Shown here: in pieces, positions 1 to 63,414 of the stretch
Position numbering within the stretch: the first letter of the stretch is position 1
How the letters are laid out: every line of letters begins with the position of its first letter
Virus record (IMG/VR): IMGVR_UViG_3300005617_000007
Span: 1-64,000 of that record
Source: a virus
DNA length: 64,000 bases
Strand: one strand, 5' to 3'
Made by a program: the position numbers and the translations under genes
The notes under the pieces: generated by a model
Told to the model about the DNA's origin: nothing
Database searches by the model: none
Seen by the model: the letters and a program-made list of their open reading frames with translations, nothing else

Positions 1-52
1 CTGTAGTCATCGCCCGGTGGGAAAGACTGCCGAGAACTGAGGAGTTGTTAAA

Positions 53-346
53 ATGTCTATCGAAATAAGTGTTTCAGATTCCGAGTTGAAGTGGCTGGAA
101 GGCCGTCGCCGGAAGCTGAACGCAATGCGCGCAAAGTATAAAGCGCGCGGCCTTGCCGAACAAAAACCAAACGTTGCGCTCTCAGGACCACCGAAGCCTC
201 ATGAGGTATGTGTATTGCTCCGCCGCCGTAAAGGACTTACCCAGAAGGAAGTCGCCGAGAAACTTGGCTGTACTCGCTTGTGGGTAGTTCAAATGGAAGC
301 GGGTGACGCGCCGATTGATCGCTTGGGCATGTTCTGGGGGCTGTAA
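53..346 (+). CDS. Small helix-turn-helix protein
   Basis: 97 aa. The N-terminal half is basic and probably helical. The C-terminal half (about residues 52-90) reads as an Xre/Cro-type HTH, with a run like LTQKEVAEKLGCTRLWVVQ that matches helices 2 and 3 of such domains. It is likely a DNA-binding regulator of early genes. The start ATG follows GAGGAG at a good distance. It lies 1 nt upstream of the primase gene and is probably co-transcribed with it. The HTH ends close to the C-terminus, so little of a dimerisation domain is present. No operator can be assigned from the sequence. Confidence 0.7.
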   Translation: MSIEISVSDSELKWLEGRRRKLNAMRAKYKARGLAEQKPNVALSGPPKPHEVCVLLRRRKGLTQKEVAEKLGCTRLWVVQMEAGDAPIDRLGMFWGL

Positions 347-13118: not shown

Positions 13119-13363
13119 CACAACTATTCGTTATCGAATCGCGGAGGCGTATGCTGATCAATACTGATCCGCAACGCCGTTGCTACAACGGTTGTCACTT
13201 CAGTTCTGAACTTGTTTGGACTGAATGGGAAGTCTTGAATTGCAATGTAACCCCGGAGACCGTCGAAGACAAATTGAAGTTCTGGCGGGAGTTGAATGAC
13301 TACGCGGTCAGCCAACGCGGCGAGGGCGCAAAATCTGAATTCCAATCGAGGATACAAGAATGA
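13115..13363 (+). CDS. Hypothetical protein
   Basis: 82 aa from ATG 13115 (ATGA overlap). Compact beta-rich start (TQLFVIESRRRMLINTDPQRRCYNGCHFSSELVWTEWEVL) and a helical C-terminus. Unknown function. Confidence 0.5.
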   Translation: MTQLFVIESRRRMLINTDPQRRCYNGCHFSSELVWTEWEVLNCNVTPETVEDKLKFWRELNDYAVSQRGEGAKSEFQSRIQE

Positions 13364-13470
13364 GCTACGTTGCTTACACCATCATCGGTCTCCTGGTCCT
13401 CGAACAGGTCCTGGATTTCGCTATCGTCTACGTGTCAATGCGCCAGCTGCGCCGGGGGCCTTTCCTGTGA
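13360..13470 (+). CDS. Very small single-pass membrane protein
   Basis: 36 aa. ATG 13360 overlaps the previous stop (ATGA), and its own stop overlaps the next GTG start (GTGA), so it is embedded in a coupled chain of genes. Nearly all of it is one hydrophobic helix (VAYTIIGLLVLEQVLDFAIVY) followed by a basic tail (RQLRRG), predicting an inner-membrane peptide with a cytoplasmic C-terminus. Confidence 0.5.
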   Translation: MSYVAYTIIGLLVLEQVLDFAIVYVSMRQLRRGPFL

Positions 13471-14075
13471 GCAAACGCGATCTGTTCGACCGCGGAGTGA
13501 TCCGCATAACCAAATTCTGCGAAGCCAATAACCTGATCGTGCCCGAGGTCCGCGTGAGCACGCCGGATGAATGGCGGATACCCGGTCACTGTGCGTATTA
13601 TCGCCCAACATACATAGCAATCTGCCTCGAACGCTGTGCGCATATCGGAACCGGCGGGGCGTCCTGGTCCTATCCGGGGTACACCGTGGACCGCGAGCCC
13701 TACGGCGTCCTGGCGCATGAGATCGGGCACCACGTCGATGTCGTGTTGGGCAATGTAAAGAACGGCAACGCCTATAATTCCGAATTCAGCAAGAACATTC
13801 GCAAAGCCTCGGGCGAGGAAAAGCTGACGAACTACTGCCCAAACGACGGCGAATGGTTCGCTGAAATGATGCGCCTCTTTATAACCAACCCCGATCTGCT
13901 CCGGCTAACTCGCCCAATCACGTTCCGCGAGCTATCGAAGTGGCTCAAGCCGGTCGAGACACGGCCCTATGACGAGGTGCTGATTAAGGCCCCGGCACGG
14001 ACCTTTGAAGCGGTTCATAAGAAGATACTGAAGGCGGAAGCCGCCGCGGAGAAAGCCCATGCGCCGGCCCGTTGA
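13467..14075 (+). CDS. Zincin-like metallopeptidase
   Basis: 202 aa from GTG 13467 (GTGA overlap). Contains VLAHEIGHHVD, an HEXXH motif with H84, E85 and H88. Downstream NDGEWFAEMMRLFITNPDLL supplies a glutamate helix that could give the third zinc ligand, as in gluzincins. No signal peptide, so it acts in the cytoplasm. It may cleave a host or phage protein; the substrate is unknown. The C-terminal 30 residues are helical and alanine-rich. It overlaps the next gene by 17 nt. Confidence 0.7.
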   Translation: MSKRDLFDRGVIRITKFCEANNLIVPEVRVSTPDEWRIPGHCAYYRPTYIAICLERCAHIGTGGASWSYPGYTVDREPYGVLAHEIGHHVDVVLGNVKNGNAYNSEFSKNIRKASGEEKLTNYCPNDGEWFAEMMRLFITNPDLLRLTRPITFRELSKWLKPVETRPYDEVLIKAPARTFEAVHKKILKAEAAAEKAHAPAR

Positions 14076-43610: not shown

Positions 43611-44768
43611 ATGACTGTACGTTATTTCTCCTCCAGTGACGCGGGCGCTCCCGTCCTAAACGGTAACAATGGATCATTGATCACGTTGCTGGACGCCTGT
43701 CTGGTGAATGGTTACGGTTCGGTGGCTATTACCTCGATCACGCAGGCGGCGGGCGTCGCGACGGTCACGACTACGGCACCCCATGGCTATGGTTCTGTGC
43801 CCAAGACCCGTATCTTGATTGCCGGGGCGACTCCGGCGGCGTACAACGGCGAATTCGATTGCACTATCACCGGCTTGAACACCTTCACCTATGCGGTCCC
43901 CGGCGGAACGGCGAGCCCGGCGACGGGTACGATCACCGCGAAGAAAAACGGTTGCGGCTGGACGAAAGCCTTCAGTGCAACGAACCAGGCCGCTTACAAA
44001 ATGCCGGTCGGATCGAACGGCCATTATTTGTTGGTCAACGACGCCGGCACCGCGAACGTTGCGACCCTGAAAGGTTGCGAGGTTGCCTATGACGCATCGA
44101 CGGGTCTGAATTACTTTCCTTCGCCGTCACAACAAGGCGGTAATGGTAACTTATGGATGTTTAAAAGCGCCACGGCTAACTCGACGGCGCGGCCTTGGAT
44201 TCTCATTTGTAATGGAAACTTGTTTCACCTTCTTGCGGATAACTCCAGCGACGCATCGACCGGGGGCGGTATCTCCTTTGGGCAGATTAACTCGTATTCC
44301 AGCGGCGACGCCTATGCTACTATTCTGACTGGTTACACCGCGGCGGCGAATACGGCTCAAAACATCAATACGATTGTGGCTAACTTGCAGACAACCCAAT
44401 TGGGTAGTTATCTGGCCCGTTCGTACACCCAGATTGGTTCATCTATTAGCTGTTGCCGTATATCAGATAGTGCCCGCTCGGGTAACTCGACGCTAACTGG
44501 TAGCGGCACGCTTCCCTATCCGCATGCCCCCGACGGTGCGTTGTCCTTGGGCGCGATCTGGTGTGGTGAACAAGTTCCTCCCGGTTTCGCCGCCGCTCTT
44601 TGCGTCCGCGGATTGGTCCCCGGTATCTGGTCATCCAATCAGACCCGTCCCAACGGACATTTGGAGTACATTACCGGAACCACAGGCGACTTATTGAACA
44701 AGATTTTCGTGGCTCACAACATTTACAGTACGGGCCAAATCCACCTTGAAGTTTCGGACACCTGGTGA
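43611..44768 (+). CDS. Tail appendage/virion protein, paralog 1
   Basis: 385 aa. Begins MTVRYFSSSDAGAPVLNGNNGSLITLLDACLVNGYGS and ends IHLEVSDTW. The middle has TVTTTAPHGYG and GATPAAYNGEFDCTITGLNTFTYAV, a beta module known from phage virion proteins that precede or replace fibres. The gene at 44772 has the same start, module order and end, so the two are tandem paralogs. Expected to sit on the tail or capsid exterior. Confidence 0.7.
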   Translation: MTVRYFSSSDAGAPVLNGNNGSLITLLDACLVNGYGSVAITSITQAAGVATVTTTAPHGYGSVPKTRILIAGATPAAYNGEFDCTITGLNTFTYAVPGGTASPATGTITAKKNGCGWTKAFSATNQAAYKMPVGSNGHYLLVNDAGTANVATLKGCEVAYDASTGLNYFPSPSQQGGNGNLWMFKSATANSTARPWILICNGNLFHLLADNSSDASTGGGISFGQINSYSSGDAYATILTGYTAAANTAQNINTIVANLQTTQLGSYLARSYTQIGSSISCCRISDSARSGNSTLTGSGTLPYPHAPDGALSLGAIWCGEQVPPGFAAALCVRGLVPGIWSSNQTRPNGHLEYITGTTGDLLNKIFVAHNIYSTGQIHLEVSDTW

Positions 44769-44771
44769 TTT

Positions 44772-45899
44772 ATGACTGTACGTGTTTACCGTTCGACTGA
44801 TCCCAACGCCCCCTCGCTGAATGGCTTGGTTGGGTCCTTGATTAACGTCCTCGACGCCTGTCTGGTAAATGGCTATGGCTCCTTGGCCACTACCTCCCTG
44901 ACACAGTCCGGGGGAATCGCGACGGTCACAACTTCGGTTGCTCATGGTTTGACCGGAACCCCGAAGGTGCTGATTTCCGGGGTCACGCCCGCCGCCTATA
45001 ACGGCGAATACACAATCACCGTAACGGGGGCAAGTACCTTCACCTATGCCGTCGCTGGTAGCCCCGCAACGGCAAGCGTACAAGGCACCGTAGGCAAGGC
45101 GTCCTCGGGCTGGACGAAGCCCTACACCGGAACCAACCTTGCTGCGTACAAACAGCCGGCGGGCTCGAACGGCTTCTATTTGATGGTGGACGATAATACA
45201 ACCGCGACTTCCGCGCGGATGACCGGCTATGAAACTATGTCCGCCGTGAATACCGGCACCGGCCTCTTTCCCACAGCTGTTCAATCAGCCGGCGGAGGTT
45301 ATTTGGTTAAATCCAACGCAGCCTCCTCGGCGTCTCGCGATTGGACCCTCATTTGTAATGGGAAGTTGTTCTATTTGTTCATCAACCAAGCCGCCCAAGC
45401 TCTGTGGACCACAGCGGTTGCGTTTGCGTTCGGTGATATCACGTCTTACAAATCCGGTGACGCTTACCACACTATCATTATCCCCTGTACGTCGGCCACG
45501 GCAACGTCTACTTCGTTGCTGGTCCTATCAACTAATGCCAATACAATTACTACAGGTCATTGGATGGCACGGACTTTCGCCCAGACCGGAACCGCGGTGA
45601 CGTGTTCAAAGTACACCGATGCGGCCCGCTCCTTCGCGAGCGCGAACATGGGCGTGAACGGTGTTACCTATCCGAACGGAGCTGATGGCGCGATAATTCT
45701 GGCGCCGGTAGGTATCGGTGAAACAGCCTCGCACCGCGGGATTATGCCTGGGCTGTGGAACATTTGCCACCCGGACCCGTTGTCTCACGGTGACTTCTAT
45801 ATCCCGGCAACTGGTGATCTAGTTGGCAAAACGTTCGAGTATTTCCACAATAATGCGGTCGGCCAAGCCTGCCTCATTGAAACTTCGGACACCTGGTGA
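44772..45899 (+). CDS. Tail appendage/virion protein, paralog 2
   Basis: 375 aa. Paralog of the preceding gene: MTVRVYRSTDPNAPSLNGLVGSLINVLDACLVNGYGS at the start, TPAAYNGEYTITVTGASTFTYAV in the middle, and IETSDTW at the end. The N-terminal half is well conserved and the C-terminal half diverges, as expected for host-range variation. The stop overlaps the next start. Confidence 0.7.
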   Translation: MTVRVYRSTDPNAPSLNGLVGSLINVLDACLVNGYGSLATTSLTQSGGIATVTTSVAHGLTGTPKVLISGVTPAAYNGEYTITVTGASTFTYAVAGSPATASVQGTVGKASSGWTKPYTGTNLAAYKQPAGSNGFYLMVDDNTTATSARMTGYETMSAVNTGTGLFPTAVQSAGGGYLVKSNAASSASRDWTLICNGKLFYLFINQAAQALWTTAVAFAFGDITSYKSGDAYHTIIIPCTSATATSTSLLVLSTNANTITTGHWMARTFAQTGTAVTCSKYTDAARSFASANMGVNGVTYPNGADGAIILAPVGIGETASHRGIMPGLWNICHPDPLSHGDFYIPATGDLVGKTFEYFHNNAVGQACLIETSDTW

Positions 45900-54708: not shown

Positions 54709-55386
54709 ATGAAATCAGTTACCTTCAATGAAATCGCGTACACCTCGAAATCGCTTGAAAAGATGTCTGGACCTGAACTGGTCGCCCTCCACAACGAGGT
54801 AGTTGGTAGTTTTACCGCCCACACCCTCAAACTCGTTACCCGTTTTGCTGACAAAGTCTCCGCTGTTAAACGTACCTGGAACGCGCTTCAATCGCTTCCG
54901 GCTCCGGTCGAAGTCGCCGCCGTCGGCGTTACCTCGAAAGAGACTGCGGTGGCTGTCGGTAAAAAGCAACTTGAGAAAGTTCTGAAGGAAGCCGTTGCGG
55001 TCAAGGCCAAAGCCTTCCGCGGCACGAACCTCGCACCCGATGATCACAAGGCTCCTCGCCCATGCCGCGCCGGCTCGAAACAAGCCGCGTTGGTTGACCT
55101 CCTCCAAACCAAAGGCGGTGTGACGATGGAACAACTGATCGCCGGTCTCGCGTTCGGCAAAAAACCCTGGATTGAAGCCACCGTTCGCTCGGGCTTCGGT
55201 TGGGACCTGAAACAGAAAGGCTACGGCGTCCAATCCTTTGTGGATGAAGAAGGCGTTGAGCGTTTTGAACTGGTAGTCACCCTAGGCTATTCTGTGCCGG
55301 CCCATACGCCGTTGCGCGGAAAAGCGAAGGCCCAAGCTGCCGCCCAGGCCAAGCAGACTTCTCTGTTTGACCCGGTGACAGAATAA
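54709..55386 (+). CDS. DUF3489-like winged-helix protein, paralog 1
   Basis: 225 aa. The C-terminal module RAGSKQAALVDLLQTKGGVTMEQLIAGLAFGKKPWIEATVRSGFGWDLKQKGYGVQS matches the DUF3489 style (a winged-helix-like domain with a conserved G[ST]K.A..V..L and a W-containing third helix). A ~110-residue helical N-terminal extension (SPELVALHNEVVGSFTAHTL-like) precedes it. Likely a DNA-binding protein. The paralog at 55475 has its own promoter-leader unit. Confidence 0.65.
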   Translation: MKSVTFNEIAYTSKSLEKMSGPELVALHNEVVGSFTAHTLKLVTRFADKVSAVKRTWNALQSLPAPVEVAAVGVTSKETAVAVGKKQLEKVLKEAVAVKAKAFRGTNLAPDDHKAPRPCRAGSKQAALVDLLQTKGGVTMEQLIAGLAFGKKPWIEATVRSGFGWDLKQKGYGVQSFVDEEGVERFELVVTLGYSVPAHTPLRGKAKAQAAAQAKQTSLFDPVTE

Positions 55387-55474: not shown

Positions 55475-55936
55475 ATGAACTTTTCAACAGATAGTAAGCA
55501 AAAACCCCCGCCGTTTCAACCGGAACGGCGAAAGAGCAGTGACCGCCGGGCCGATACTCGGCGCCACGTCGCCGCTCGAATCTTTCTGCGTGGTACGAAC
55601 CTTCAGCCGCCCGGATACCCGCTCAAATCCTGCCTTGCTGGCACCAAGCAGTCCATTCTCGTGGATATGTTGCGGAAACCGGAAGGCGCGACGATGAGCG
55701 AGCTGATTGAGGCGCTTTCTGGGGGCTCGCGGCCTTGGACTGAGGCCACTGTCCGCTCCGGGTTCGGATGGGACTTGAAACAGAAGGGCTATGGCGTTCG
55801 CTCGGAATTTGACTCAACGGGTCAGGAGCACTTTCACCTGATCATGCCGAAGGGTTGCCGAATTCCAAAGCATGCGACCGAAAGAACGCCCTTGCGGCGT
55901 CGGACCGCGCACAAACCGTCCAAAACAAAACACTAA
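55475..55936 (+). CDS. DUF3489-like winged-helix protein, paralog 2
   Basis: 153 aa from ATG 55475. Shares with the preceding gene the core LKSCLAGTKQSILVDMLRKPEGATMSELIEAL...PWTEATVRSGFGWDLKQKGYGV, about 30 residues of which are nearly identical. The N-terminal ~45 residues are basic and disordered-looking (KPPPFQPERRKSSDRRADTRRH). Probably nucleic-acid binding. Terminated by a hairpin. Confidence 0.65.
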   Translation: MNFSTDSKQKPPPFQPERRKSSDRRADTRRHVAARIFLRGTNLQPPGYPLKSCLAGTKQSILVDMLRKPEGATMSELIEALSGGSRPWTEATVRSGFGWDLKQKGYGVRSEFDSTGQEHFHLIMPKGCRIPKHATERTPLRRRTAHKPSKTKH

Positions 55937-55978: not shown

Positions 55979-56851
55979 ATGAGCCGTAATTACGAAAGGC
56001 TGGACATTGAAACGTTCGGCGATCACCTCTTGACCAGCTATGACCTCGACCCGATTTATGTTGCGCTTGTAGACGCTCGACAAAATGGGGCTTACAATCT
56101 TGCTCAGGTACAGCGTTGGCTTATCGCCTATTGGTGCTACTACCACGCAGGCGTCGCGAGCTTTCTGAGCGAACACGAAGGGAATGACTTCTGGTTCTGG
56201 ATGCGCGAGGCCGCGTTGAATGAACGCGAGTCGCCGGCTGGAGGTCGCTGGCCGCGGGGGCATGAGCGCCGTCACTTCCGGGCGAAGATAGCGACTGACG
56301 CGGTGGAAGCCCTACGCCAACGCTACGGCAATCAGCCGGAGAACATGGTATATTACATGTATGCGACCAATGATCAGATACCGCTCACGATGGGGCTGGT
56401 ATCTTCTCGGGCTCAAAGCCACTGGGGCTTCGGTCCATGGATTGGGTTCAAGATCGCAGACATGATCGACCGTGTGTTGGGCGTTCGGGTTGATTTCGAC
56501 GCCGCCGCAGTATTCATGTTCAAGGACCCGGAGAAGGCGGCGATGATGCTCTGGGAACAGCGTGAGGCGCACAAGTACCCGGAAGGGGCGAAGCCGAAGC
56601 GCGAGGTTATCTTGAAAGGTGTCACAGCCTATCTTGAAAAGACCTTTGCAAAGCACCGCGCGCCGCCGCTCGGCGACCGCGCCATCAACATTCAGGAGGT
56701 TGAGACCGTTCTGTGTAAGTGGAAAAGCCACATGAATGGTCACTATCCGCTCTGGAACGATATTGACGAAATAAACAACGGATTGGAGCCCTGGGTGTCG
56801 GATAGCCCGGCGGCTGCACAGTTTCTCGATTGCATGCCCAAAAGGAAATAG
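55979..56851 (+). CDS. aGPT-type pyrophosphorylase, clade 2-like (thymine hypermodification)
   Basis: 290 aa. The pattern [48 protein letters not shown]...[17 protein letters not shown] is that of the predicted alpha-glutamyl/putrescinyl thymine pyrophosphorylase family, clade 2. These phage enzymes displace pyrophosphate from activated hydroxymethyl-dU in DNA with an amino-acid or polyamine group. It would install the side chain, possibly glycine by analogy with phage M6. A second, diverged member is encoded at 60287. Heads the hypermodification operon. Confidence 0.75.
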
Positions 56852-56853
56852 TG

Positions 56854-57165
56854 ATGACCATAGTCAAAATGAGCGGCGCCCGAGTCGCCGAATTACAACG
56901 CCTGGAACAAGCCGTGCGGATGGCGCGAGAGGAGTTAGAGAAATACACGGAGGCCAGCTTGGTTGAATCCCCGGCGAAGCCCGGGGACATTGTCGAAATC
57001 ACCGGCTATTCGTATCGCGGAAGCAGTATGCAAGTTGTGCGCATAGCCTTAATCAGCGAGGGCCGCGGGCAATTCCACTGGCGCGCAACCGGGTTTGTGC
57101 TCAAGAAAGACGGCACCCCGGGCCTGAATCACGCCGAGACCTATTGGGAGATTGAACCGTGCTAG
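56854..57165 (+). CDS. Hypothetical protein in hypermodification operon
   Basis: 103 aa from ATG 56854 with AAGGAA upstream. A helical N-terminal third (SGARVAELQRLEQAVRMAREELEKYTE) is followed by a compact domain (PGDIVEITGYSYRGSSMQVVRIALISEGRGQFHWRATGFVLKKDG). It may be an SH3-like fold. Overlaps the PLP enzyme by 7 nt, suggesting coupled expression. Function unknown. Confidence 0.55.
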   Translation: MTIVKMSGARVAELQRLEQAVRMAREELEKYTEASLVESPAKPGDIVEITGYSYRGSSMQVVRIALISEGRGQFHWRATGFVLKKDGTPGLNHAETYWEIEPC

Positions 57166-58007
57166 TCAACAATACTCCGCTGGAGACCTACCAGCTCAAC
57201 GGCATTCCGATCCTCGTCAAGCGCGAGGACCTTTGCGCCCCGTTCCCGGGGCCGTCCTTCAGTAAGATGCGAGGGGTGGTTGCTCATATCGAAGCGCGAG
57301 ACGAAAAGTTTATTGGCGTGCTCGACACATTCCACTCCAAGGCCGGTTGGTGCGTGAGCTACGTCTGTCAGCAGCTCGGGAAGGTCGCCGTGAACTTCTG
57401 GCCGCGCTATAAAGCGGACCCCGCTGAGGGCTTCCCGAGGAAGCAGCAACAGTATGCCCACGGCTTCGGCGCCCAGATGGTAACGCTACAGGCCGGGCGT
57501 TCCTCCGTCCTGTTCCACCAAGCGAAGAAACAATTGGCCGCGGGTTGGTCCGATTCCTACCTGATGCCCAACGCGCTGAAGCTCCCCGAGTCGATCACCG
57601 AAAACGCCGTGGAAGCTGAACGGACGTGTCTGTTGGGCAATATCCCGCTGACCGGAATTCTGGTGCTCAGTATCAGTTCGGGGACCGTCGCCGCGGGCGT
57701 CCTGAAGGGCTTCCATTATGCCGGTTTCCTGAAGAATTATCAGGTCATACTCCACATGGGTTATTCGCGGAGCGAGGAGGCCACCCGGAAATATATTGAA
57801 AGTTGTGTTGGTTTCCCGCTCGGGCCTAACATTCAATTCGTTGACGAAGGCTACGGCTACGCCGACGCCGCGCGCGACATTGATGTGCCCTTCCCATGTA
57901 ACAAGTTCTATGACGCGAAGGCGTGGAAGTTCCTCAGCAAGCCCGAAGTCCTGGCCGGCCTGGTAGCGACCGGAAAGCCAATAGTTTTCTGGAATATCGG
58001 CGATTAA
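57159..58007 (+). CDS. Fold-type II PLP enzyme of the hypermodification pathway
   Basis: 282 aa from GTG 57159. VKREDLCAPFPGPSFSKMRGVVAHIEAR has the lysine (K36) in the position of the PLP Schiff-base lysine of ACC deaminase/cysteine-desulfhydrase-like enzymes. FHSKAGWCVSYVCQQLG corresponds to their GG.QSN segment, and LSISSGTVAAGVLKG to the phosphate-binding loop. In M6-like pathways a PLP enzyme decarboxylates the amino acid already attached to the thymine; that role is inferred from the neighbours. Length is slightly short for the family. Confidence 0.75.
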   Translation: MLVNNTPLETYQLNGIPILVKREDLCAPFPGPSFSKMRGVVAHIEARDEKFIGVLDTFHSKAGWCVSYVCQQLGKVAVNFWPRYKADPAEGFPRKQQQYAHGFGAQMVTLQAGRSSVLFHQAKKQLAAGWSDSYLMPNALKLPESITENAVEAERTCLLGNIPLTGILVLSISSGTVAAGVLKGFHYAGFLKNYQVILHMGYSRSEEATRKYIESCVGFPLGPNIQFVDEGYGYADAARDIDVPFPCNKFYDAKAWKFLSKPEVLAGLVATGKPIVFWNIGD

Positions 58008-58023
58008 ATCCAAGTAATAATAG

Positions 58024-58053
58024 TTTACTTCTCGCCCCGTCCTGGAGTAGACT
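58024..58053 (+). promoter_or_regulatory. Phage early-type promoter P8 (TTTACT-N18-TAGACT)
   Basis: TTTACT 58024-58029 and TAGACT 58048-58053, spacer 18. Followed by AGGAGA and a TTG start at 58080, so here the leader motif is replaced by an ordinary Shine-Dalgarno. Confidence 0.6.
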
Positions 58054-58079
58054 TTTTCTCATTCATAGGAGATACCCCC

Positions 58080-59528
58080 TTGCAATCCGAATCTGACCAC
58101 ACCGAATGGCTCAAAGGCGATACTGGTGAACAAGCCCAGGAAGCCTACAATTATTTCATGCGTCCCGATCCTAACCAGCGGGAATTCCTCGGACCAATTG
58201 AAGAGGAATTCGATGAGCTGACCGGGATGACGGCGCGTTTCCGTCTCGCCAAAGTGGGTATGATCCGCAACGCTCCCGTCGAGTCGATGCGTGAGGTCAA
58301 GGTGTATTTGGGTTTCAATGACAAGACCTACGTGCCGCACCTTCGGATACCGAACGCGAAGCCGTTGCAGGGTTGGTATCAGGACCGGGATAACAACAAG
58401 CAGGGCTCGCGCCCGCGCCCTTGTTTCTCCGAAGCGATCCTGACGGAACCCTATGGCGGCTATTGTACCGTGGGTTGCGCCTTCTGCTACGTCAACAGCG
58501 GCTTCCGCGGTTATCGGGGCTCAGGTTTGATAAGTGTCCCGTTGAACTATGGCGATCAGGTACGGAAGATGCTGAGCAAGACCCGCGCTTCAGCTGCCGG
58601 CTATTTCAGCAGCTTCACTGACCCCTTCCTCCCGATTGAGGACGTTTACCATAACACCCAGCGCGGCGCCGAGGCGTTCACTGACTTGGGCCTCCCGGTG
58701 TTCTTTCTCAGCCGTCTGTCCTATCCGGGTTGGGCGTTCGATCTGCTGAAAAAGAATCGCTACAGCTACGCCCAGAAATCGTTGAACACCGGCAATCCCG
58801 AGGACTGGCAAAAGTTGAGCCCTGGGGCGATTAGTCTTGATGCCCACCTCGAAGAAGTCCGCGAGCTTCGCCGCCAGGGCATCTATACCTCGATTCAGTG
58901 CAATCCAGTAGTGCCTGGGATCGTAACCCATGACGATATTCGTTGCCTGTTTGAAAAGCTCGCCGCGGTCGGTAACAACCACGTCATCGTCAAATTCGTT
59001 GAAGCCGGCTATTCATGGGCTCCGGCGATGACCGAACGCCTGACAAAGCGGTTCGGGCCGGCGCGGGCGAAAGCCTTTCAAGACTTGTTCACGGAGAACC
59101 AGGCCGGTGCCCAACGCACCATCGTCGAATCGTACCGGCTCGAAGCCCATGCGCTGTACCAGAAGTGGGCGACCGAATTGGGTATGACCTATGCGACCTG
59201 TTATGAGTATCGTCGCGGGAAGCCCGGGACCTCCGAACCTAAATGGTTGTCTGTTGGGCGCGAATACACCACGGCGGATCAGTGCCACGGCCAGAAGGTT
59301 CCGATGTACACCCGGGACAAGGTCGCTGATCTATTCGAGGAAGTCGCCGAGTGCGCGCCGTCGGGTTGTCTCCACTGCGGCGACGAAACCGAAGGAAAAG
59401 GCGCTTGCGGTTCCGAGATATTCGGCGTGGCCAAGGCCCTCCGTTCACCGGACTACAAGCACAAGATCGAACGCGCCCCGGTTGTTCAGGAGCCGGCTCA
59501 GTTCATCGAAATAAAACAAATAGATTAA
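58080..59528 (+). CDS. Radical SAM enzyme of the hypermodification pathway
   Basis: 482 aa from TTG 58080 with AGGAGA upstream. The CTVGCAFC motif (C129, C133, C136) is the canonical CX3CX2C for the [4Fe-4S] cluster. SPL-like downstream segments (GYFSSFTDPFLPIEDVYHNTQRGAEAF, VFFLSRLS, IQCNPVVPGIV) form the TIM barrel. A C-terminal cluster CAPSGCLHCGDETEGKGAC may bind an auxiliary cluster. In phage M6 a radical SAM isomerase rearranges glycine-derived side chains to C-C-linked groups; the same role is proposed here. Confidence 0.85.
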   Translation: MQSESDHTEWLKGDTGEQAQEAYNYFMRPDPNQREFLGPIEEEFDELTGMTARFRLAKVGMIRNAPVESMREVKVYLGFNDKTYVPHLRIPNAKPLQGWYQDRDNNKQGSRPRPCFSEAILTEPYGGYCTVGCAFCYVNSGFRGYRGSGLISVPLNYGDQVRKMLSKTRASAAGYFSSFTDPFLPIEDVYHNTQRGAEAFTDLGLPVFFLSRLSYPGWAFDLLKKNRYSYAQKSLNTGNPEDWQKLSPGAISLDAHLEEVRELRRQGIYTSIQCNPVVPGIVTHDDIRCLFEKLAAVGNNHVIVKFVEAGYSWAPAMTERLTKRFGPARAKAFQDLFTENQAGAQRTIVESYRLEAHALYQKWATELGMTYATCYEYRRGKPGTSEPKWLSVGREYTTADQCHGQKVPMYTRDKVADLFEEVAECAPSGCLHCGDETEGKGACGSEIFGVAKALRSPDYKHKIERAPVVQEPAQFIEIKQID

Positions 59529-59552
59529 GCAACACCCGAAAAGGAGCACGAC

Positions 59553-60290
59553 ATGAAATTCATAAACATCCGGGGCTGTAATGGCTCCGGCAAAACAACT
59601 CTCCTCCGCTCGCTCGCGACCGATCCGCTATGCCAGGTTCAGTCTATCGTCATGCCCGCGCATGATTGTCGCATACCCGTCACCTATATTCCAAACGGGC
59701 TCGCAATTATTGGTGACTACACCCGCGCGGCGGCGGGCGCGACCACAGCTGGTTGCGACCGGATAAAAACTCAACAAGCCGCCAAAGACATTTTGGAATT
59801 CGTCGCGCGCGATCCGCAGGTGGATTTCATTCTATTCGAGGGCGTTGTAGTAAGCACTATCTATGGCCCTTGGCGCGATTGGTCGCGTGCCAACGGAGGC
59901 ATGGCCTGGGCGTTCCTCGACACTCCGCTGGAGATATGCTTGGGCCGGATTCAGGAGCGTAACGGCGGCAAGCCTATCAAAGAGGATCAGGTGGCCGATA
60001 AGCACCGCACGATAGCGCGAGTACGAGACAAAGCTATGTTTGATGGCGAGGCTGTTTGCGATCTTCATTGGCAGACGGCTTTGCGTGATATCAAAGCGTT
60101 GATAAATTTTATGCGTCACCCTATTGACCCAGAGGTGCGAAACCACCACAAATCAGTTCTCCCTGATAGTCCATGGGTCACTGAGTACCCGGCGCCCCTT
60201 CAGAAAAGTTCGATTCAGAATACAACATGCTGCGACAAGCCCAACATCAGTCCTCGGGGCGTCTGTATCTCCTGTGGAGCACCGCAATGA
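59553..60290 (+). CDS. P-loop kinase, predicted 5-hydroxymethyl-dU DNA kinase
   Basis: 245 aa. GCNGSGKTT (residues 8-16) is a clear Walker A. ILFEGVVVSTIYGPWRDWS resembles a Walker B/acidic strand, and LDTPLEICLGRIQERNGGKPIKEDQV a lid region. The C-terminus carries TCCDKPNISPRGVCISCG, a Cys4 zinc knuckle. It lies between the radical SAM gene and an aGPT gene, so it fits the hmdU DNA kinase that phosphorylates the hydroxymethyl group before displacement. GAAAAGGAGCAC before the start is a variant of the common leader. Confidence 0.75.
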   Translation: MKFINIRGCNGSGKTTLLRSLATDPLCQVQSIVMPAHDCRIPVTYIPNGLAIIGDYTRAAAGATTAGCDRIKTQQAAKDILEFVARDPQVDFILFEGVVVSTIYGPWRDWSRANGGMAWAFLDTPLEICLGRIQERNGGKPIKEDQVADKHRTIARVRDKAMFDGEAVCDLHWQTALRDIKALINFMRHPIDPEVRNHHKSVLPDSPWVTEYPAPLQKSSIQNTTCCDKPNISPRGVCISCGAPQ

Positions 60291-61210
60291 GCCCAAGAAC
60301 CGAAGCCCTCAGCCGCTTTATGAAAGCGCGCCACAACATCTATCTGAAGCGGATCGGAGGTTGGCCCGGTCCGTGGACCGATGACCCGGTGCTTCGTGAC
60401 GGTCGGTTCTGTAACATCTTCCGGGAACTCGACACGGTGACCATTTGGGTTCGCGAGAATATCCGCGAGCCCTACGCCGATCACCCGAACCTCTGGTTGA
60501 TGCTTTGTATCGCTCGCTACATTAACTGGCCCCCAACGCTCGCCGCCCTGATCGAATCGAAGGCTTGGCCGAGTCACCCGGAGTTCACCCCGGAGTATTT
60601 GACCACGGCGCTCGAAGGGCTCGCGGCGATGGGTCACAAGGTCTACACCGGCGCGTACATGATCCGCGCGGAGTCCGATCCGAACAAACCATGGTACGTT
60701 TGGACTAAGCACCGTTATATTGCTGAAATCGTTATCGGTCGCTTGTGGGAATATCGGGATCAGTTTGAGTGCCGGCTTGAATCTCCGGCGACGCTTGAAG
60801 ATGTTTGGGACTTATTTCAGGAGCCTTATTTCATCGGCTGGGGTCCCTTCATGGCCTATGAGGTAGTGACTGACCTCCGTCATACCCGCTACCTCCGCGA
60901 CGCCCCGGACATTATGACTTGGGCCAATGCTGGTCCCGGCGCAATCCGCGGGCTGAATCGGTTGTATGGTCGGGAATTGAACACGCAGCCGAAGAAGGAG
61001 CAGACCAACAACGAAATGTTTCTGCTCATGGAACAAATGAACGCCAACCCGATGCTCTGGCCGGAGAAGTGGCCGCGGCTCGAAATGCGCGACGTGGAAC
61101 ACTCGCTTTGCGAGTTTGATAAGTACGAACGTGTTCAAGCCGGAGACGGCAAGATGCGCTCGAAATATGACTGGCGCAAAGCCACTGACCTTACCAGAAA
61201 CGGAGAATAG
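60287..61210 (+). CDS. aGPT-type/hmdU kinase helical-domain family protein
   Basis: 307 aa from ATG 60287 (ATGA overlap with the kinase). HNIYLKRIGGWPGPWTDDPVLRDGRFCNIFRELDTVTIWVREN, then WGPFMAYEVVTDLRHTRYLRDAPDIMTWANAGPGAIRGLNRLYGR, and C-terminal LEMRDVEHSLCEFDKYERV. These match the clade of alpha-glutamyl/putrescinyl thymine pyrophosphorylases related to the helical domain of hmdU DNA kinases. Coupling to the kinase suggests it acts with it, either as transferase or as the DNA-recognition partner. Confidence 0.75.
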   Translation: MSPRTEALSRFMKARHNIYLKRIGGWPGPWTDDPVLRDGRFCNIFRELDTVTIWVRENIREPYADHPNLWLMLCIARYINWPPTLAALIESKAWPSHPEFTPEYLTTALEGLAAMGHKVYTGAYMIRAESDPNKPWYVWTKHRYIAEIVIGRLWEYRDQFECRLESPATLEDVWDLFQEPYFIGWGPFMAYEVVTDLRHTRYLRDAPDIMTWANAGPGAIRGLNRLYGRELNTQPKKEQTNNEMFLLMEQMNANPMLWPEKWPRLEMRDVEHSLCEFDKYERVQAGDGKMRSKYDWRKATDLTRNGE

Positions 61211-61212
61211 AA

Positions 61213-61791
61213 ATGGCCTCGATTCGCTTGAATACGTGGATGAAAGATGAATTGCTCTCTCGCCTCGCAAAAGCTGGATTTGACGATAAAGATAAGGCGA
61301 TCAACGCCGACTTTCTCAAATTCGGAAACGATATTTACAACAAGGTTTATCCGAAGAAGATACAAGAATCTATGAACGCAATGCCAGAAGGGGCCTTGCC
61401 GACGGACGATGATTTGCGTATCCGTTTCGAGGGGATTGATAACAATTGGTCTCGCGTTAGTTTCGGGGAACACCGCCGGATATTCGATAAACACCGCAGT
61501 AATATCGCGTTGGTATTGGCTAACAATGATCCAATGAGCGAACGTTATGCGGTTCTTTGTAAACGCCGCAACGATCATAACGAAGCCCGCGAACACGCCA
61601 GGCGCTCCGCTCGCGCTGTCCTCGATAGCGTTAGCACCGTCAAGAAGCTCTGTGAAGTATGGCCTGAAATCGCGCCCTTCTGCGCAGATTTCCTCCCCGG
61701 CGAAGGCAAGGTGAATCTGCCCGCACTCCCAATCCAAGACCTCAACAAACAGTTCGGCCTCCCGCCGGAGAAGAAAGGAGCCAAGAAATGA
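61213..61791 (+). CDS. Nmad5-like nucleotide-modification-associated protein
   Basis: 192 aa. LNTWMKDELLSRLAKAGFDD..., YNKVYPKKIQESMNAMPEGALP, IDNNWSRVSFGEHRRIF, and the C-terminal helix AREHARRSARAVLDSVSTVKKLCEVWPEIAPFCADFLP fit the uncharacterised Nmad5 family, which is defined by association with phage base modification. Activity is unknown. It sits between an aGPT gene and the dUMP hydroxymethylase with ATGA overlap, so it is probably part of the pathway or of protection against it. Family assignment from memory, moderate confidence. Confidence 0.6.
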   Translation: MASIRLNTWMKDELLSRLAKAGFDDKDKAINADFLKFGNDIYNKVYPKKIQESMNAMPEGALPTDDDLRIRFEGIDNNWSRVSFGEHRRIFDKHRSNIALVLANNDPMSERYAVLCKRRNDHNEAREHARRSARAVLDSVSTVKKLCEVWPEIAPFCADFLPGEGKVNLPALPIQDLNKQFGLPPEKKGAKK

Positions 61792-62858
61792 AAGTGATTC
61801 GTGCCCGTAACGTCCATCAAGCCTTACCCGAGGCGATCCGCCAGCTGAAGCTGGAAGGCGTCGCCCGCGATTCGCGCAATGGACCCGTCCTGGTGTTCCC
61901 GGAGCCGGTCACGACGGTCTATGAGCGCCCGGCGGAGCGCGTTCTGTTTTGGGCCGAACGCGACGCCAACCCGTTCTTTCACCTGGTCGAATCGCTCTGG
62001 ATGTTGGGTGGACGCAATGACGTGGAATTCGTTGCCCGGTACGTCGAGCGCATGCGCTCCTTCAGTGATGACGGCGTAACCTTCCATGGAGCCTACGGCT
62101 GGCGCTGGCGCAAACATTTCCTGTTCGATCAGCTCCCTGTTATTATCGACGCGCTGAAGAAGGACCCGACCGACCGCCGCCAGGTTCTTTCGATGTGGGA
62201 CGCGCGCGCTGACTTGGGCCGTCTCGGCAAGGACCTTCCCTGCAATCTCCAGGCCATTTTCCAGATCGCTCCCGATGGCCGGTTGGATATGACCGTGACC
62301 AATCGCTCCAACGATATTATATGGGGAGCCTACGGCGCCAACGCGGTTCATTTCAGCTATCTTCACGAGTATGTCGCCCGGGGCGTCGGCGTCGAGCAGG
62401 GGATATATCGTCAGGTGTCGGCGAACTTTCACGCCTATACCGAAGTGTTGAAGACAATGGAAATTCTCGCGGAGCATGCCAACTTCGACGTTCCCGGAAT
62501 GACCGTGATGGACCCCTACGCTTGGCGCAAGGGCATGCCCGAGGTCGAGCCCTACCCGCTGATCAGTACCGATCTGGAGCAGTGGCGCGATGATCTGGAA
62601 ATGTTCATGGATAACCCGACTGCAATGGGTTTGCGTGATCCTTTCTTCCGTCGGGTCGCGGTTCCGATGATGCTGGCCCACGCAGCGTTCAAGAAAACCG
62701 GACAAGGGGAAATCCGCTTTGATGAAGCTCAACAACACCTCGACAACGTCAAGGCGACTGATTGGCAGCTGGCTGGAAAGGAGTGGATTGAGCGGCGGCG
62801 TCGGGCTTATCTTGAGCGCCAGGCTAAAGCGAATGATAACGGAGTCGCATATGAATAA
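61788..62858 (+). CDS. dUMP hydroxymethylase (thymidylate synthase homolog)
   Basis: 356 aa. DRRQVLSMWDARADLGRLGKDLPCNLQAIFQIAPDGRLDMTVTNRSNDIIWGAYGANAVHFSYLHEYVARGVGVEQGIYRQVSANFHAY contains the catalytic cysteine (C152) and the RSNDIIWGAYGAN loop. In canonical thymidylate synthases the corresponding loop reads RSxDxxLGxPFN. The GAYGAN variant is typical of phage dUMP/dCMP hydroxymethylases that add formaldehyde from methylene-THF without reduction. It would supply 5-hydroxymethyl-dUMP. The flanking modification genes support this over plain thymidylate synthesis. Confidence 0.85.
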   Translation: MKVIRARNVHQALPEAIRQLKLEGVARDSRNGPVLVFPEPVTTVYERPAERVLFWAERDANPFFHLVESLWMLGGRNDVEFVARYVERMRSFSDDGVTFHGAYGWRWRKHFLFDQLPVIIDALKKDPTDRRQVLSMWDARADLGRLGKDLPCNLQAIFQIAPDGRLDMTVTNRSNDIIWGAYGANAVHFSYLHEYVARGVGVEQGIYRQVSANFHAYTEVLKTMEILAEHANFDVPGMTVMDPYAWRKGMPEVEPYPLISTDLEQWRDDLEMFMDNPTAMGLRDPFFRRVAVPMMLAHAAFKKTGQGEIRFDEAQQHLDNVKATDWQLAGKEWIERRRRAYLERQAKANDNGVAYE

Positions 62859-63414
62859 ATTCTTGCAGGTCCTCGCGACTCGGGAGGCCGGCGCGGTGCG
62901 CCGGTGTCATATAATCCCCCATCACGGTCAGTATAACATCGCCCAACACAGTTATGGTGCGCTGTCGCTGCTCCTCCTGCTTCACCCCGGGCCGTCGCTC
63001 GCGCTGATCAAGGCCGTACAGTGGCACGATGTCGGCGAACGCTGGTTGGGTGATATGCCGGCCCCGGCGAAGTATTCCAACCCCGACCTGGGCCGCGTTT
63101 ATGAGGAGGCTGAACAAGCGATCCTCGAAACGCTTGAATTGGCTCAGGTCTTGACAGAGGAGGAAACTCAGTGGCTCAAGGCCGTTGACACGCTCGACCT
63201 CTGGCTGTGGTGCTGGGAAGAACACCGCCTTGGCAACAAGCGCGTCCAGCAAATGTTCCAGGTTTGTTTCGACGTACTAATGAAACGCCATGACGAAGGT
63301 ACGCTGCCGGGTGAGGTCCGCTTCTTCGTGGACAACTTCAACTCGAACCGCGGGCGCCTGTCGGACTTCTTCGAGGAAGCAATGGCCGATGGACCTGGAA
63401 AAGCTCGCGGCTGA
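62851..63414 (+). CDS. HD-domain 5'-deoxynucleotidase (YfbR-like)
   Basis: 187 aa from ATG 62851. RRCHIIPHHGQYNIAQHSYGAL with H33 and QWHDVGERWLGDMPAPAKY with H59/D60 make the HD metal site. AVDTLDLWLWCWEEHRLGNKRVQQMF supplies the last acid. Same architecture as E. coli YfbR, which dephosphorylates deoxynucleoside 5'-monophosphates. In this context it could remove dTMP or recycle dUMP and so bias the pool toward hydroxymethyl-dU (inference). Overlaps its neighbours on both sides. Confidence 0.8.
   Translation: MNKFLQVLATREAGAVRRCHIIPHHGQYNIAQHSYGALSLLLLLHPGPSLALIKAVQWHDVGERWLGDMPAPAKYSNPDLGRVYEEAEQAILETLELAQVLTEEETQWLKAVDTLDLWLWCWEEHRLGNKRVQQMFQVCFDVLMKRHDEGTLPGEVRFFVDNFNSNRGRLSDFFEEAMADGPGKARG

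Follow-up and report, generated by a model that had tools for sequence, protein, structure and literature searches.

A probable M6-type thymidine hypermodification pathway encoded by one gene block of an undescribed phage

The order of reactions by which Pseudomonas phage M6 (Yuavirus) hypermodifies thymidine is said to have been established by Lee et al. in 2018 and 2022. Reportedly, 5-hydroxymethyl-dUMP is synthesized and its product replaces dT, a kinase acts on 5-hydroxymethyldeoxyuridine (5-hmdU) in DNA, and glycine is transferred, after which a radical S-adenosylmethionine (SAM) enzyme is reported to isomerize the N-linked to a C-linked glycine that a pyridoxal phosphate (PLP) enzyme decarboxylates to 5-(2-aminoethyl)deoxyuridine (5-NedU). 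M6 uses its seven-gene block to decorate the thymines of its DNA as protection against restriction enzymes; its DNA carries 5-NedU and withstands 48.4% of the type II enzymes tried on it (PMC6449724). SN1 and M6-like phages are also listed with this cassette (PMC9476957), and Pseudomonas phage PaMx11 yields 5-NmdU, according to a passage of PMC11946847 that cites Wen et al. 2024. Here we describe a block of tightly packed open reading frames (ORFs), all on the + strand, at 55979-62858 of a 64,000-base stretch (the window, to which all coordinates refer) that comprises bases 1-64000 of the 67,064-base virus record IMGVR_UViG_3300005617_000007. We propose that the block very probably encodes an M6-type pathway making 5-NedU, the reactions and the base being predicted from the relationships of its proteins.

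A first-pass annotation, made from the letters and ORF translations, had named seven proteins in this block and likened them to the M6 set. All seven are present as + strand ORFs with the named motifs exact; a further ORF of 103 amino acids inside the block (56854-57165) had been omitted from that account. Seven of the eight block ORFs fall into the expected Pfam and PHROGs families. The block is bounded by the start of its first gene and the stop of its last, and the starts at 56854 and 60284 were picked by alignment and context rather than as the first possible start codon. Scans of the cluster region for promoters, terminators and tandem repeats were empty or gave results no better than shuffled sequence. 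The features, the last of which lies beyond the block, are as follows.

55979..56851, + strand: amino acid:DNA transferase, M6 gp051 orthologue (PF18724 ADDT, E=7.5e-29)
56854..57165, + strand: 103-aa ORF between the transferase and PLP genes, function unassigned, without a family match
57159..58007, + strand: PLP-dependent fold-type II enzyme, M6 gp052 orthologue (PALP PF00291, E=8e-6, below the curated cut-off)
58080..59528, + strand: radical SAM enzyme, M6 gp053 orthologue (Radical_SAM, E=0.006, below the cut-off; PHROG 9252, E=1.5e-289)
59553..60290, + strand: P-loop 5-hmdU DNA kinase, M6 gp054 orthologue (PF18748, E=3.6e-18)
60284..61210, + strand: HMUDK_hel protein, M6 gp055 orthologue (PF18723, E=6.2e-52)
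61213..61791, + strand: Nmad5-domain protein, M6 gp056 orthologue (PF18757, E=5.5e-32)
61788..62858, + strand: dUMP 5-hydroxymethylase, M6 gp058 orthologue (thymidylate synthase family, E=2.5e-19; PHROG 5131, E=7e-153)
62851..63414, + strand: HD-domain 5'-deoxynucleotidase-like protein, M6 gp059 orthologue (PF12917, E=2.9e-12)

Each enzyme of the pathway is present, in order and with its active-site residues. Gene order and strand match those of M6 (NC_007809) gp051-gp058 far beyond chance, and the proposed equivalence of the two gene sets holds: the same seven genes occur, six of them encoding proteins 66-78% identical to their orthologues (transferase 70.5%, PLP enzyme 67.7%, radical SAM enzyme 78%, kinase 75% over 187 aa, HMUDK_hel 66%, hydroxymethylase 74%), with the Nmad5 protein at 32%. 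The likeness extends to the flanks, where genes for a ribonucleotide reductase, a UDG-like protein and a DUF3489 protein lie upstream and those for the HD nucleotidase (64% identity) and a DNA polymerase lie downstream.

The pathway is expected to begin with the thymidylate-synthase homologue, which would form 5-hydroxymethyl-dUMP. Its predicted C152 and GAYGAN loop are exact, the loop lying at residues 180-185 and ending in the dU-type Asn, N185. The nucleotide would then be converted to the triphosphate and replace T in replication. A dCMP deaminase encoded by the phage is a possible feeder of dUMP, and the HD-domain protein probably shapes the dNTP pool. In the DNA, the P-loop kinase and HMUDK_hel would phosphorylate the hydroxymethyl group at selected sites. 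The kinase assignment is upheld by a Walker A motif, GCNGSGKT, at residues 8-15, and by Pfam scores above the cut-off for both the kinase (PF18748) and HMUDK_hel (PF18723). The kinase also has a C-terminal tail of about 58 aa (60113-60290) that contains four cysteines (CC...CISC), possibly a small zinc site; no counterpart was found in M6, Bordetella phage CN1 or the fetched IMG/VR relatives.

A single amino acid:DNA transferase would next join glycine to the DNA through its nitrogen. Two aGPT-type pyrophosphorylases had been proposed, and this description fits the product of 55979-56851, formerly aGPT-PPlase, which belongs to PF18724 and is predicted to couple glycine to 5-hmdU phosphorylated within the DNA. 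Its sequence is 71% identical to that of a Yuavirus-type amino acid:DNA transferase of solved structure, PDB 25qc, a protein that in turn shares 96.5% identity with M6 gp051, and it is related to PDB 8z2m, the PaMx11 gp46 glycinyltransferase. It is the only amino acid:DNA transferase within the block. The description does not fit 60284-61210, formerly aGPT-PPlase1, whose domain assignment indicates that it is more plausibly the helical domain that partners the kinase than a second pyrophosphorylase. Its predicted model is all-helical (pLDDT 91.7), and its closest homologue is found in Stenotrophomonas phage Sonora (71%). We consider it unlikely that this position holds another amino acid transferase or pyrophosphorylase, independent of the first. 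The older nomenclature of aGPT-PPlase1 and 2, still in PMC9476957, speaks for such an enzyme, as do a faint colinear similarity between the transferase and HMUDK_hel profiles (E 0.008, probability 4.7) and a fold search in which the two best matches, both non-significant, are the queuine salvage enzyme DUF2419 and OGG1. However, Pfam places the protein in the 5-hmdU DNA kinase (PF18723), the solved transferases match the 55979-56851 protein and not this one, and in Bacillus phage Goe26 HMUDK_hel (residues 312-597, PF18723) and the kinase (35-193, PF18748) form one polypeptide. It is possible that HMUDK_hel and the transferase share a deep common origin, as the old name implies.

We propose that the radical SAM protein, as a putative isomerase working on DNA, then rearranges the N-linked glycine to a carbon-linked one. 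The CX3CX2C motif ascribed to it is exact (CTVGCAFC at 129-136), and C129, C133 and C136 are invariant among 31 sequences. A second set of residues, C374, C402-H403, C425, C430, C433 and C443, is likewise invariant across these sequences and may form an auxiliary metal site, either an Fe-S cluster or zinc; this set is worth biochemical attention. In the last step, the PLP enzyme is predicted to decarboxylate this C-linked adduct, which would yield 5-NedU. It retains an invariant lysine, K36 in FSKxR, the candidate Schiff-base lysine, together with an invariant loop containing S173, S174 and T176.

The superfamily names attached to these two genes suggest another reading, to which we give very little credence, namely that they are unrelated to base modification: PHROG and RefSeq annotations call them 'DNA repair photolyase' and 'threonine dehydratase'. 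These names are inherited from superfamily hits. In most of the IMG/VR relatives the two genes sit in a single unit with those for the transferase, kinase and hydroxymethylase, and M6, which bears both, makes 5-NedU (PMC6449724). Profile searches, which might have assigned the pair to unrelated pathways, instead gave the M6 and YuA proteins as their closest relatives.

The same pair bears on the product. PaMx11 and Sonora, of the 5-NmdU type, share with the window phage the core of transferase, kinase, HMUDK_hel and hydroxymethylase (Sonora also has Nmad5), but in them an FAD-dependent lyase, accompanied in PaMx11 by an acetyltransferase, replaces the PLP and radical SAM enzymes. The gene order in PaMx11 is transferase, FAD lyase, acetyltransferase, kinase, HMUDK_hel and hydroxymethylase, and in Sonora the lyase homologue sits between transferase and kinase; in the window phage, the PLP and radical SAM genes occupy this slot. 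Neither the PaMx11 FAD lyase (gp47) nor its acetyltransferase (gp48) has a match in the 67,064-base record (tblastn, E<=0.01). Because the PLP and radical SAM genes are present and the lyase and acetyltransferase genes are absent, we expect an M6-type rather than a PaMx11-type product. The earlier proposal that this phage carries the same hypermodified thymine as M6, or a closely related one, is well supported by unambiguous orthology and synteny with the M6 cluster and by both of these observations.

Several points weigh against 5-NedU as the product. We infer the chemical identity of the base in the window phage from sequence, and the PALP and Radical_SAM Pfam scores of the window proteins fall under their curated cut-offs. 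The phage also differs from M6 in having the extra 103-aa ORF after the transferase gene and the cysteine-containing tail on the kinase, neither of which has an M6 counterpart. As to the PLP enzyme, the proposed fold-type II assignment stands because the M6 orthologue clears the PALP cut-off (39.5 versus 35) and because, among PDB entries, a profile built from 29 relatives of the gene hits ACC deaminase (E=5e-4) as well as tryptophan synthase beta. It is improbable, in our estimation, that the same core leads to another end product, for example because the C-linked glycine intermediate is kept or because the amine is further modified by the 103-aa ORF or another gene. Tailoring genes are indeed swapped among close relatives, as the FAD lyase in Sonora and PaMx11 illustrates, and the block does contain an unmatched ORF; but both tailoring enzymes share 68-78% identity with their M6 counterparts and keep every invariant residue, and the 67-kb record yielded no homologue of either the acetyltransferase or the lyase. 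Marginally less probable still is a modified thymine that ends up one step past 5-NedU, or one step before it, by way of the 103-aa ORF, the changed tail of the kinase or the diverged Nmad5.

The Nmad5-like protein was correctly recognized in the block, but its place as a member of the pathway is only partly sustained. Among 19 neighborhoods with long flanks, Nmad5 occurs in seven and was undetected in 12, where HMUDK_hel often directly adjoins the hydroxymethylase gene. Because of these absences, and because Sonora, a phage of the lyase type, has Nmad5 as well, the PLP/radical SAM chemistry does not require this protein; although commonly listed in the pathway, it is dispensable by this census and is an optional accessory rather than a core step. 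A fold search with its predicted model (pLDDT 84) gave no significant match among solved structures. We considered and rejected a transfer of function from the report of a Tmn-related nmad5 (PMC11846954), since that Dhillonvirus protein is distant and its deletion left the phenotype unchanged. For the 103-aa ORF, searches returned no Pfam family above the curated cut-off and no PHROG match, and tblastn against 50,697 phage records gave none either.

The distribution of the tailoring genes was surveyed in 50 IMG/VR loci gathered with the radical SAM protein of the window as query; because of this query, the census describes the relatives of that protein rather than all hypermodifying phages. 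The PLP gene accompanies the radical SAM gene in all 36 of the loci with at least 900 bases upstream. In GenBank phages, the two genes turn up in almost equal numbers of records, each being at least 80% covered in 66 of them, and the bacterial and archaeal genome set contributed only four loci, all in metagenome-assembled genomes. Rhizobium phages (L060 4219-5103; L006 1-6416, which is RHph_I72) have the PLP, radical SAM, transferase and kinase genes in a different order and carry a myovirus-like structural module, which argues that the pathway moves between phage families. Rhizobium phage I72 was briefly a candidate for a variant lacking the PLP enzyme and was rejected, as its PLP gene spans the record start.

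The genome that carries the block is that of an undescribed, uncultured, Rabinowitzvirinae-like phage of the Mesyanzhinovviridae, represented solely by this virus record. An exact 70-base direct terminal repeat (window 1-70 is the same as record bases 66995-67064) points to a circularly closed assembly and so to a probably complete genome of about 67.0 kb (about 66,994 bases). It is this repeat, together with collinearity with M6, whose ORFs along most of the genome are matched at 29-89% protein identity, that leads us to regard the record as probably a complete, undescribed member of the family. Among described phages it stands nearest to Yuavirus, Vojvodinavirus (Bordetella phages) and Stenotrophomonas phages, to which nucleotide identity is about 73-77% and confined to short stretches. 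Just upstream of the cluster are two tandem DUF3489-type genes (54709-55386 and 55475-55936), likely a tandem duplication; M6 has one such gene (gp049). In the tail region, two adjacent and visibly similar proteins (43611-44768 and 44772-45899) without an M6 match or Pfam family are probably receptor-binding or tail-fibre parts. Elsewhere, 13296-14075 encodes a protein with a HEIGHH zinc-metallopeptidase motif, a sub-threshold Pfam match and no M6 counterpart.

The block is not a new system but a further example of a known one, carried by a phage related to M6, where that system was elucidated. With it the M6-type group gains a divergent, probably complete genome. Within Rabinowitzvirinae, Bordetella phage CN1 and Stenotrophomonas phage Bhz59 have the same seven-gene order, and six of their proteins are 63-80% identical to those of the window, except for the Bhz59 kinase (50%); their Nmad5 proteins are only 39-40% identical to that of the window phage. 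In CN1 the slot of the 103-aa ORF is taken by another, unlike short ORF, and the ribonucleotide reductase has two subunits. Taken with PaMx11 and Sonora, these genomes offer a natural comparison, in which close phages keep the hydroxymethylase, kinase and transferase core and swap only the tailoring genes, either PLP and radical SAM enzymes or an FAD lyase.

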